Source: Bacillus mojavensis RO-H-1 = KCTC 3706 (GTDB lineage Bacteria; Bacillota; Bacilli; Bacillales; Bacillaceae). Taken from it: 64,000 bases of DNA. The position numbers were made by a program, and so were the translations under genes. A model generated the notes under the pieces. The model did not search any database. It had not been told where the DNA came from and saw only the letters and a program-made list of their open reading frames with translations. Shown one piece after another: positions 24,552 to 30,187 of the stretch; the stretch's first letter is position 1, and every line of letters begins with the position of its first letter. The stretch is from contig NZ_JH600287.1 in the NCBI RefSeq assembly GCF_000245335.1, forward strand, positions 1 to 64,000, read 5' to 3'.

Positions 24552-25778
24552 ATGTTGGATCCACTTGATATTTTAACGAACATTGATGATGTCCACCCAT
24601 ATTACCAGGCGATTTTCAGTGCCGAGGAGCAGAAAATCGTCGGGTATGAGGTGCTGGGACGTATATTGGCAGATTCAGAAATTCAAAGTCTCGGACCCTT
24701 TTTTTTAGATGCGGGGATACCCGAAGAATATAAATTAGAGGTTGATAACAGAATTATCCGCCAGGCTCTTGACCGCTTTTTAGAAGCGGATTCTGATCTG
24801 CTGATTTTTATGAATCAGGATGCCAATCTTTTAATGCTTGATCACGGCGAAAGCTTTCTTGAGCTTCTGAAAGAGTATGAAGCGAGAGGGATCGAACTTC
24901 ATCGTTTCGTGCTTGAAATTACGGAGCACAATTTTGAAGGGGATATTGAGCAGCTTTACCATATGCTTGCCTACTATCGTACATACGGAATTAAAATTGC
25001 AGTTGATAATATCGGAAAAGAAAGCAGCAATCTGGACCGAATTGCGCTGCTTTCACCAGATTTGTTAAAAATTGATCTGCAGGCGCTGAAAATATCGCAG
25101 CCATCTCCGTCTTATGAGCATGTGCTGTACAGCATTTCATTATTAGCAAGAAAAATCGGTGCGGCGCTGCTTTACGAAGATATTGAGGCGAATTTTCAGC
25201 TTCAATATGCATGGAGAAACGGAGGCCGCTATTTTCAGGGCTTTTATTTGGTGTCCCCGTCAGAATCGTTTTTAGAGAGAGATGTATTGAAGCGAAGACT
25301 TAAGACTGAATTTCACCAATTTATCACACATGAGAAAAAGAAACTAGAAACCGTCTATGAGCACTCTGAACAGTTTTACAAACGGGTGCATCAGGCTGTT
25401 ACATCATTGCGAAAATATAACCAGTCTCCGGATGATGACGACTTTATTAAAAAGCTGGCGGAAGAGCTGACGGATTGCAGTTTTAGAATTTATATTTGTG
25501 ATGAAGAAGGCGATCAGCTGACTGGAAATGTTTTTAAACAAGACGGAGAATGGATTTACCAGCCGGAGTATACGGAGAAGAACTGGAGCTGGCGTCCTTA
25601 TTTTTTAGAGAATATTATGAGAATGAGAAACCTCAGAAAAGGATTTTTCAGTGATTTGTACAGCGATTTGGAAACAGGTGAAATGATTAGAACGTTTTCG
25701 TATCCGATGGATGATCATATGTATTTATTTATAGACCTGCCGTATTCTTATTTATATGAGCAGGATGGTTTGATTTAA
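24552..25778 (+). CDS. ykuI: Degenerate EAL-domain c-di-GMP-binding protein YkuI
   Basis: A 408-residue cytoplasmic protein. Residues about 1-250 form an EAL domain (YEVLGR, FVLEITEHNFEG) and the C-terminal part is a PAS/Cache-like domain (LTDCSFRIYICDEEG, FFSDLYSDLETGE). The usual DDFG loop is altered to VDNIG. This fits published work showing that B. subtilis YkuI binds c-di-GMP without detectable phosphodiesterase activity. The start is ATG at 24552 after AAGCAGGTG. Its terminator precedes the fsrA locus. Confidence 0.93.
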   Translation: MLDPLDILTNIDDVHPYYQAIFSAEEQKIVGYEVLGRILADSEIQSLGPFFLDAGIPEEYKLEVDNRIIRQALDRFLEADSDLLIFMNQDANLLMLDHGESFLELLKEYEARGIELHRFVLEITEHNFEGDIEQLYHMLAYYRTYGIKIAVDNIGKESSNLDRIALLSPDLLKIDLQALKISQPSPSYEHVLYSISLLARKIGAALLYEDIEANFQLQYAWRNGGRYFQGFYLVSPSESFLERDVLKRRLKTEFHQFITHEKKKLETVYEHSEQFYKRVHQAVTSLRKYNQSPDDDDFIKKLAEELTDCSFRIYICDEEGDQLTGNVFKQDGEWIYQPEYTEKNWSWRPYFLENIMRMRNLRKGFFSDLYSDLETGEMIRTFSYPMDDHMYLFIDLPYSYLYEQDGLI

Positions 25779-25831: not shown

Positions 25832-25860
25832 TTGACATTGATACTGAGAATCATTATCAT
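25832..25860 (+). promoter_or_regulatory. Fur-controlled promoter of fsrA
   Basis: TTGACA at 25832-25837 and TATCAT at 25855-25860 have 17-base spacing. A 7-1-7 Fur box, TGAGAATCATTATCA at 25845-25859 (one mismatch to the TGATAATNATTATCA consensus), overlaps the -10, so iron-loaded Fur would block transcription. Confidence 0.88.
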
Positions 25861-25867
25861 TTAATTA

Positions 25868-25952
25868 TAGAGAGAAGCTACTCTCTGTTCCCCAACCCCT
25901 CTATCAGATCAAGATCCGAAAAGCTTGGCGCTACCCCCGCCAAGTTTTTTAT
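25868..25952 (+). ncRNA. fsrA: FsrA, Fur-regulated small RNA
   Basis: A non-coding RNA of about 84 nt known to lie between ykuI and ykuJ in B. subtilis. It base-pairs with mRNAs of iron-rich enzymes (for example sdhCAB) and blocks their translation in the iron-sparing response. The sequence shows a Fur-box promoter upstream, two single-stranded C-rich tracts (CCCCAACCCCTC and CTACCCCC) suited to pairing with G-rich ribosome-binding sites, and a terminator stem CTTGGCG/CGCCAAG followed by six T residues ending at 25950. The 5' end is inferred from the -10 position. Confidence 0.88.
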
Positions 25953-26025
25953 TTGTCAACGAATAAGACAAACCATAAAACAATAAACCTTATTAGTGGT
26001 AAACAACGCCACTAGGAGGATAAAA

Positions 26026-26580
26026 CTTGTTCAAAAGGAGCAACAGCCTGCGCATTGACCTTCCAACCCCAGAACATCCTGACCCAAATGCTCTAGCCGC
26101 GGTTCAAAAGCTGTTAGGCGGCAAATTTGGTTGTCCACTCTCAATCATTACATGTTCCAATCCTGTAACTTTCGCTGCAAGAAAAAATTAAAACCGTTTT
26201 ACGACGATCTCGTATCAAGCATTACGGCTGAAGGATTATGTCTTTAATGCTGACAGGTTCGTCATTTAAAGGTGATCCCGATGTTTTACATCGATGAGAG
26301 ATGCAAAAAATAGACGCAATTCCCAGCATCTTATTGAAACGGCTCAAACGTATCCGTTTGATTCGATGGGGAAGTCTGGACTGGTGAAAATGGGTTTAAC
26401 AGCGGAAACCTGATGCTGCTGGATTTGCTCATGTGCGGCGGCGTTCACATCGGGGCTTATGCCAAAGCGCTTGAGGTTGCGACTGGCGGAAGTATCGGCA
26501 AAATGCATCCAATCCCGAATCCCGTTATTCAAAAGAAGATTTTGACAAAATTGCAAAAAGGCTGTTGGATTCTGCCGGAA
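26026..26580 (+). pseudogene. Decayed manganese (non-haem) catalase gene
   Basis: A relic of a dimanganese catalase like B. subtilis YdbD/YjqC. From the TTG near 26027 (after AGGAGG) one frame reads FKRSNSLRIDLPTPEHPD and on to LLGGKFG. A second frame continues LNHYMFQSCNFRCKKKLKPF to SSITAE. Further pieces are LMLTGSSFKGDPDV, QHLIETAQTYPFDSMGK and MCGGVHIGAYAKALEVATG. Several frameshifts and an internal deletion of the central metal-binding region separate these. The C-terminal third is missing. It lies between fsrA and ykuJ. It cannot make an enzyme. Confidence 0.85.
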
Positions 26581-26787
26581 TATCAAAAAAACTATAATTG
26601 TGTGTATGACATTCCAAAAAAAGCCTCAAACTACGTAAAAATAGTTTTTTCACTTTTTTTCTTTTCTTAAATTCAGCAGGGAAAATGCCATCCTGTCCGA
26701 CTTTATGGTATGATGCTCAATAGAACTTGTATTATAATAAATACTTGTTGATTTGAAGTTGTTTTTTGAAAGGAGTCTTTTTTTAGA

Positions 26788-27027
26788 ATGTCACAATTAA
26801 TGGGTATCATCACACGGCTGCAAAGTCTGCAAGAAACGGCGGAAGCGGCTAGCGAGCCAATGCAACGCTACTTCGAAGTAAATGGTGAAAAAATATGCAG
26901 TGTTAAATATTTCGAAAAAAATCAAACGTTCGAACTGACAGTTTTCCAAAAAGGTGAAAAGCCGAACACATATCCGTTTGATAATATCGACATGGTTTCA
27001 ATCGAAATCTTTGAACTTTTGCAGTAA
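26788..27027 (+). CDS. ykuJ: Small conserved protein YkuJ
   Basis: A 79-residue protein of unknown function conserved in Bacillus. It starts MSQLMGIITRLQSLQETAE and shows alternating strands in its second half (ICSVKYFEKNQTFELTVFQ). ATG at 26788 follows AAAGGAGTC. ykuK lies 109 bases downstream in the same direction. No motif is recognised. Confidence 0.88.
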   Translation: MSQLMGIITRLQSLQETAEAASEPMQRYFEVNGEKICSVKYFEKNQTFELTVFQKGEKPNTYPFDNIDMVSIEIFELLQ

Positions 27028-29635: not shown

Positions 29636-29694
29636 TTGACAATGAAAATCATTATCATTTAAAGTGGTACATATGATATTGAAAATCATTATCA
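29636..29694 (+). promoter_or_regulatory. ykuNOP promoter with two Fur boxes
   Basis: Two identical 15-mers TGAAAATCATTATCA lie at 29643-29657 and 29680-29694, 37 bp apart, each one mismatch from the 7-1-7 Fur consensus. TTGACA at 29636-29641 is the likely -35. ykuNOP is a known Fur-repressed operon. Confidence 0.9.
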
Positions 29695-29710: not shown

Positions 29711-30187
29711 ATGGCAAAAGCCTTGATTACATATGCCAGCATGTCAGGAAATACCGAAGACATTGCTGGAATTATAAAAGATACGCTGCAGGAATATGGT
29801 TTAGACATTGATTGCATCGATATGGATGACGCAGAAACATCGGCTCTGACTTCTTATGATTATGTGCTCATTGGCACCTATACATGGGGGGATGGCGATT
29901 TGCCTTACGAAGCAGAGGACTTTTTCGAAGAGGTTCAGCAGCTCGAGCTGAACGGATTGAAAACAGCTTGCTTTGGCTCGGGGGATTATTCTTACCCAAA
30001 ATTTTGTGAAGCTGTCAATCTGTTCAGTGACATGCTGCAAGAGGCGGGAGCTGCTGTCTATCAAGAAACACTTAAAATTGAGCTTGCCCCTGAAACGGAT
30101 GATGACGTGGAAAGCTGCAGAGAATTTGCAAGAGGTTTTCTTGCATGGGCAGATTTTGTGAACAAGGGAAAAAGCCATGTTTCATAA
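29711..30187 (+). CDS. ykuN: Flavodoxin YkuN
   Basis: A 158-residue FMN-binding electron carrier that replaces ferredoxin when iron is short; B. subtilis YkuN donates electrons to fatty acid desaturase and P450 BioI. The FMN-phosphate loop is SMSGNTED, the second loop YTWGDGDLP, and the third SGDYSYPKFC. ATG at 29711 follows GAGGTGA. Its last codons overlap the ykuO start by 11 bases. The two Fur boxes upstream put it under iron repression. Confidence 0.95.
   Translation: MAKALITYASMSGNTEDIAGIIKDTLQEYGLDIDCIDMDDAETSALTSYDYVLIGTYTWGDGDLPYEAEDFFEEVQQLELNGLKTACFGSGDYSYPKFCEAVNLFSDMLQEAGAAVYQETLKIELAPETDDDVESCREFARGFLAWADFVNKGKSHVS

Follow-up and report, generated by a model that had tools for sequence, protein, structure and literature searches.

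A relic of a manganese catalase gene next to fsrA in Bacillus mojavensis, and the promoter-like block in front of it

The locus between ykuI and ykuJ

The window analysed here is the whole stretch of 64,000 nucleotides from Bacillus mojavensis RO-H-1 = KCTC 3706, whose genome (G000) measures 3.96 Mb. The locus is bounded by a ykuI-like gene, a name that we adopt from the gene order of B. subtilis, and by a ykuJ-like gene, and it holds the following features, all on the forward strand:

24552..25778, +, ykuI-like gene, 408 aa, left boundary of the locus
25839..25859, +, Fur box 5' of fsrA, with TGAGAATCATTATCA at 25845, one mismatch against the core used
25867..25949, +, fsrA small RNA with its terminator hairpin (RF02273, 113 bits)
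25961..25989, +, promoter-like block, here ATA-N16-AATA, common to intact leaders and gene-less relatives
26014..26019, +, AGGAGG, remnant ribosome-binding site of the relic, from sequence and alignment
26027..26597, +, relic of a Thermus-type manganese catalase gene, 566 of 909 coding positions aligned, 10 indels
26598..26787, +, 190 nt 5' of ykuJ, 0 of 190 differences from B. halotolerans
26788..27027, +, ykuJ-like gene, 79 aa, right boundary of the locus

The covariance model identified fsrA in the window as a full member of RF02273, with 113 bits against a gathering cut-off of 80, and a table in PMC3574147 likewise gives the position of fsrA as ykuI-ykuJ. Within 26598-26787, the part closest to ykuJ is strongly conserved in genomes that lack the catalase gene as well. 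Further downstream, Fur-like boxes with one mismatch each are found at 29643 and 29680, just 5' of a ykuN-like gene at 29711, which presumably encodes a flavodoxin.

A broken manganese catalase gene behind fsrA

An earlier note, made from the letters of the window alone, had proposed a dimanganese catalase relic at 26026-26580, directly downstream of fsrA, with at least four frame changes and an internal deletion. Translated alignment confirmed that a broken manganese catalase gene lies directly 3' of fsrA, and placed it, close to the proposed extent, from 26027 (the position of the start codon, now TTG) to 26597 (the position of the stop). First, the intact protein of the B. halotolerans type aligned with the relic over residues 1-207 and 281-301, with 97.1, 96.7 and 42.0 bits and a best E of 5.7e-28, against a maximum of 21.9 bits in 200 dinucleotide shuffles. 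Second, among the 14 Mn catalases tried, the best alignment of the relic was with the intact orthologue from the same place, which is present in other species between ykuI and ykuJ, where the note had advised to look for it. Third, a single open reading frame of about 300 codons is absent, the longest plus-strand frame in the relic being of 85 aa. Comparison with the intact B. halotolerans gene gave ten indels, five of them frame-shifting, a count in which neighbouring deletions may be single events.

The Pfam model PF05067 (Mn_catalase) matched pieces of the relic in two frames, namely, 26027-26188 (E 3e-4) and 26131-26244 (E 2.5e-5), and gave no match for the pieces 26294-26410 and 26413-26667; in a search of the whole genome, three places in the relic were recovered with E of 0.0017, 0.026 and 5.8, all below the family cut-off. 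Such scores of single pieces would suit a chance similarity or a sequencing error, but this is refuted by the shuffle control, and the pattern of decay by codon position, the several indels and the relics in other genomes speak against it too, so that we give it practically no weight.

The earlier note knew of no annotation of this relic, and our search of the literature, by titles and the beginnings of abstracts, likewise returned no paper on it, nor one in which fsrA, manganese catalase and Bacillus come together; PMC3896406 makes no mention of YdbD, YjqC, manganese, Mn-catalase or fsrA. The relic itself is of an ordinary, known kind of enzyme, to which its old fsrA neighbourhood and the surviving block add somewhat.

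The intact orthologue and its subfamily

The intact orthologue, found in G015 and in B. halotolerans ATCC 25096 with the fsrA-ykuJ stretch identical in both, is a protein of 302 aa. Compared with solved Mn catalases, it scored 359 bits to 2cwl and 71 bits to 1jku, which we take to be the enzymes of Thermus thermophilus (together with 2v8t) and of Lactobacillus, respectively. Because of this difference, the intact copy is assigned, as judged from its sequence, to the Thermus type and not to the YdbD/YjqC/CotJC type. With the T. thermophilus enzyme it shares the long type, the five ligand positions and an alignment over nearly its whole length; the window copy differs in being dead, with one of the five ligand positions. 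At the positions that we assume to be those of the Mn ligands (Glu, Glu, His, Glu, His), whose letters were checked, nine of nine intact orthologues of the locus examined carry all five, whereas in the window, as read from alignments, the codon of one is lost to a deletion, that of another is changed, two more lie within or at the edge of deletions, and the last His is kept. The window sequence is therefore named a relic, and not a working Thermus-type Mn catalase.

The likeness to YdbD and YjqC that the earlier note had drawn did not hold at this level. The genome has four other PF05067 genes over the cut-off (L001-L004, with open frames of 288, 273, 189 and 284 codons), three of which we call, from length and neighbours, YjqC-, YdbD- and CotJC-like, and a dead duplicate of one of these would account for the shared Pfam family. 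The intact orthologue, however, is only 22-41% identical to the four, and 28-30% to the YdbD- and YjqC-like proteins, and in tblastn against the relic the four proteins reached at most 29.6 bits, as compared with 97.1 for the orthologue from the same place; descent of the relic from a catalase of its own genome is thus highly improbable, and L001-L004 were ruled out as its parent by the intact syntenic orthologue. YdbD, YjqC and CotJC of B. subtilis are alike in Pfam family and ligand letters, but are of another subfamily, 22-30% identical to the intact orthologue. With the NCBI model ManCatBAC, L001 and L002 pass the cut-off, and the intact orthologue, L003 and L004 stay below it.

Repeated loss and neutral decay

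Among 44 genomes of the genus, the gene stands at full length behind fsrA in 19, as a relic in 10, and without a trace in 15, the last including G026, in which fsrA over the cut-off is absent too. In five of the relics (G004, G005, G007, G010 and G038), a DNA search recognises little beyond the leader and the 3' end. Twenty named loci were also examined. First, the gene is intact between fsrA and ykuJ in B. halotolerans, B. atrophaeus and eight pumilus-type records, and in B. safensis FO-36b it is cut by the end of the locus. Second, relics are found in B. spizizenii, B. inaquosorum, B. tequilensis, B. sp. N13C7 and B. sp. SKDU12. Third, B. velezensis, B. siamensis, B. nakamurai and B. sp. ISL-51 lack the gene. 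All 17 pumilus-type genomes of the set have it intact.

In a tree of ykuJ and ykuK (22 rows, the B. xiamenensis row being a short piece), the window pairs with the intact B. halotolerans with support of 100/97, and the other nine relics group apart from it, with lower support (91/94). From this place in the tree, we regard the source of the window as a member of the B. subtilis group. A 28-nt deletion near the start is common to B. inaquosorum, B. spizizenii and G005, and a similar one is present within about 10 nt in B. tequilensis and G010; the window has no deletion at these sites, and no lesion of the same size and place is common to it and the other nine relics. Because of the pairing with B. 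halotolerans and the lack of common lesions, the loss in the window is independent of the other relics. The gene was thus lost more than once, and the window copy died after the split from B. halotolerans.

The substitutions in the relic are spread over the three codon positions as 14/13/18, as compared with 20/5/132 between the intact genes of B. halotolerans and B. atrophaeus, where 26 of 156 changes are nonsynonymous, which indicates purifying selection. With B. atrophaeus as outgroup (492 sites), the window branch has 21 nonsynonymous changes out of 28, against a neutral expectation of 0.756, and the B. halotolerans branch has one out of six. With N13C7 as outgroup, the corresponding figures are 20/29 and 1/5. 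These computations show that the relic decays neutrally, without constraint.

An old place in the family

The gap between ykuI and ykuJ was examined in 35 genomes from five other genera of the family (g2-g6); a 36th, G054, had no match to ykuJ, and the G065 contig stops short of ykuI. Intact copies of the catalase occupy eight gaps (two in g2, five in g4, one in g5) and broken or fragmentary ones four, and the remaining 23 gave no tblastn match to it at E 1e-3; in g2, four of the seven genomes have broken or fragmentary copies. A usual arrangement runs from ykuI through a gene for 79 aa and one for about 200 aa, in some cases a Fur-box RNA, the catalase and genes on the opposite strand to ykuJ. 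The opposite-strand genes are glutaredoxin-like and beta-lactamase-fold-like, names given by reading of the sequence only. We had considered that fsrA took the place of the two genes preceding the catalase, but abandoned this when Fur-box RNAs turned up behind the same two genes in other genera.

From this shared position we infer that the catalase was already in the ykuI-ykuJ gap before the split of at least four genera of the family. Its patchy presence within Bacillus (19 intact, 10 relic and 15 none of 44) would also be produced if some species had acquired the gene recently, but the same position in three other genera, with 75-84% protein identity, and the presence in gene-less genomes of the block found 5' of the gene argue against this, and we regard a recent acquisition as very improbable.

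A Fur box with at most one mismatch is present in 24 of the 35 gaps (19/20 in g3, 4/6 in g4, 1/1 in g6, 0/7 in g2 and 0/1 in g5), and all 24 carry a C-rich core, by a pattern that was widened after looking at g4 and G074; behind these RNAs, a terminator hairpin can be seen by eye in the printed sequences. The arrangement of Bacillus recurs in g4, where a perfect Fur box and a C-rich RNA immediately precede the catalase at four of its five loci. No Fur-box RNA accompanies the catalase in g2 and g5, and 19 of 20 g3 loci have the RNA but no catalase. Within the genus, 43 of 44 genomes scored above the cut-off of the Rfam model of FsrA; of the 36 genomes outside the genus none did, in a run with stricter filters by which weak matches are lost, and G079 among them reached 47.8 bits. 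With a relaxed threshold, nine loci of g2, g4 and g5 gave no FsrA match. Because the model passes none outside the genus, the Fur-box RNAs of g3, g4 and g6 are named FsrA candidates only, by position and anatomy and not by model score. These 24 RNAs (L102-L105, L115 and L120-L138) lie below or outside the reach of the Rfam model. PrrF matches overlap those of L103 and L102, with E of 0.3 and 2.8 and 30.7 and 26.3 bits, respectively, against a cut-off of 90.

The catalase-fsrA neighbourhood looks old, since the catalase is at the same place in three other genera and in one of them behind an FsrA-like RNA. The suggestion that fsrA lies in the old upstream region of the relic stands to this extent: many relatives have the two together in the ykuI-ykuJ gap, and in a second genus the catalase follows an FsrA-like RNA.

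fsrA and the catalase: probably neighbours rather than partners

The earlier note had also seen in the catalase a possible partner of fsrA. Taken further, the two would form one iron-sparing unit, in which iron shortage releases Fur, FsrA shuts down iron proteins, and read-through beyond the fsrA terminator yields a catalase dependent on manganese in place of heme. The adjacency in the genus and in a second one (4/5 catalase-bearing g4 loci) would agree with such a unit, as would the ykuN-like gene downstream in the window with its Fur-like boxes at 29643 and 29680. Against it, a terminator hairpin stands between fsrA and the catalase in the printed fsrA sequences, the catalase comes with a block of its own even where a Fur box is lacking (the four loci G046, G050, G078 and G077), and g3 keeps the RNA in the absence of the catalase. 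FsrA is reported to bind Shine-Dalgarno sequences via a C-rich motif (PMC9410917). Its predicted pairing with the six catalase starts behind fsrA, of -12.4 to -18.3, is no stronger than with other genes (mean -18.1 in a small null of 20 start regions of the window), and pairing to the catalase start region was rejected on these ordinary energies. We therefore consider the iron-sparing unit unlikely. A regulatory tie between fsrA of the window, full member of its family as it is, and the catalase was not found in these comparisons. As the gene would be transcribed from a promoter-like block of its own, placed after the fsrA terminator and before the start codon, fsrA looks like a long-standing neighbour more than a partner.

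A promoter-like block in front of the catalase

The pattern ATA-N17-CATA occurs about 60 nt 5' of the start codon in 32 of 37 catalase leaders, many of them near-copies, as compared with 84 of 7400 shuffled ones. It is present in eight of the nine loci outside the genus, including the four that lack a Fur box. It is missing from L107, a broken copy with CATG, and from the four leaders of B. halotolerans and B. atrophaeus, which have AATA. The consensus of sigma-E promoters consists of ATA, 16-18 nt and a CATACA-like -10 element, and in the genome of the window ATA-N16-CATACC stands 5' of the first gene of a cotJ-like operon, which is presumably under sigma-E control. The block would most likely be a promoter for a sporulation sigma factor, resembling the sigma-E type, a reading that is weaker in the clade of the window because the intact B. 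halotolerans and B. atrophaeus have AATA and not CATA. The two boxes make a loose pattern: allowing a spacing of 15-18, it also matches four times in repetitive DNA of L001 in the same genome, at a great distance from the gene, and has no match in the 250 nt before L002 or L004.

Taken together, the explanation that we consider probable is that of an old Thermus-type catalase pseudogene with its own promoter-like block, lost repeatedly and dead in the window by an independent, neutral route. First, a dimanganese catalase of the long type (about 300 aa) would have settled in the ykuI-ykuJ gap before at least four genera separated. Second, its intact copies presumably break down hydrogen peroxide without heme iron. 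Third, the gene would be read from its own block between the fsrA terminator and the start codon, most likely a promoter for a sporulation sigma factor. Fourth, it was lost repeatedly, the window copy dying after the split from B. halotolerans and drifting neutrally since. The relic, orthology by position, subfamily, independent death, neutral decay and conserved block of this explanation were computed; for the enzyme activity and spore use of the intact copies and for the type of promoter, we infer. A loose hint has thereby become a placed event, namely, the repeated loss among B. subtilis relatives of an Mn catalase with an old, fixed place beside fsrA, and FsrA candidates have come to light in further genera, beyond the Rfam model.

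The block is the most novel part of the locus. A weight matrix made from nine catalase leaders, seven from other genera and two of pumilus type, finds it in 15 of 15 gene-less genomes of the genus, with p of 0.003-0.010 each against 300 shuffles, the genomes being related and these p values not independent. Applied as a control to longer stretches from 11 of the 23 loci without the gene in other genera, with 100 shuffles, the matrix gave p of 0.04-1.0, with one value below 0.05. In nine gene-less genomes belonging to one clade, probably licheniformis relatives, mean identity is 79% in the block, against 21% for the 50 columns before it and 37% for the 45 after it, with gaps counted as mismatches, which lowers the first of these figures. 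At the gene-less loci (L111, L112, L113, L141-L147 and L035-L038, all in the gap behind fsrA, and L140 from G026), the block reads GAATAAGACA...CATAAA or similar.

In each of the ten relics the 30-nt block contains no more than one gap column. Of 12 comparisons (ten relics, B. atrophaeus and B. velezensis), one showed the block to change more slowly than the dead coding region at p<0.05, that of G010 with p=0.04, followed by B. spizizenii with 0.053; because of this, the case for conservation rests on the gene-less genomes and the lack of indels. These observations argue that selection may keep the block for something other than the catalase, with slow decay as the alternative. Since it is also found without the gene, the block may not be the promoter of the catalase alone. 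It is tempting to speculate, although the odds seem to us somewhat against it, that a sporulation-type promoter has outlived the catalase, and that in gene-less genomes selection keeps the block driving a short RNA, or ykuJ and the genes that follow. If so, the locus would join, by position, the Fur-FsrA control of iron with sporulation, the catalase being one former output. The gene-less genomes expose a conserved promoter-like element.

BPUM_1305 and other catalase copies

Some strains of the pumilus group have spores of unusual peroxide resistance, for which BPUM_1305 has been named as a candidate, in one paper with spore coat oxidoreductases (PMC1976550, PMC3682946). The gene is labelled ydbD in one paper, and is greatly different from YdbD according to PMC1976550, where strain SAFR-032 is described as having YjqC and an Mn catalase 25% identical to YdbD, no homologue of YdbD or CotJC, and BPUM_1319 as YkuU. 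The eight pumilus-type genomes that we examined for PF05067 genes have one or two each, one of which is located after fsrA. This gene is probably BPUM_1305, as compared by description and numbering, and the intact B. halotolerans copy is most probably its orthologue, a link that rests on counts and gene numbering and not on sequence. The passages on BPUM_1305 in PMC1976550 and PMC3682946 leave fsrA unmentioned.

In two of these eight genomes, G025 and G017, the fsrA-linked catalase is the sole PF05067 match. G015 shows the reverse of the genome of the window, with the fsrA-linked catalase intact and an apparent broken copy, at G015:C1:429628-430444, of the catalase type that is intact as L004 in the genome of the window. 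Finally, G067 has five catalase matches of equal score (C1:1399553-1414606 and C1:256898), four of them spaced exactly 4723 bases apart, which reflects either a tandem amplification or an assembly artefact.
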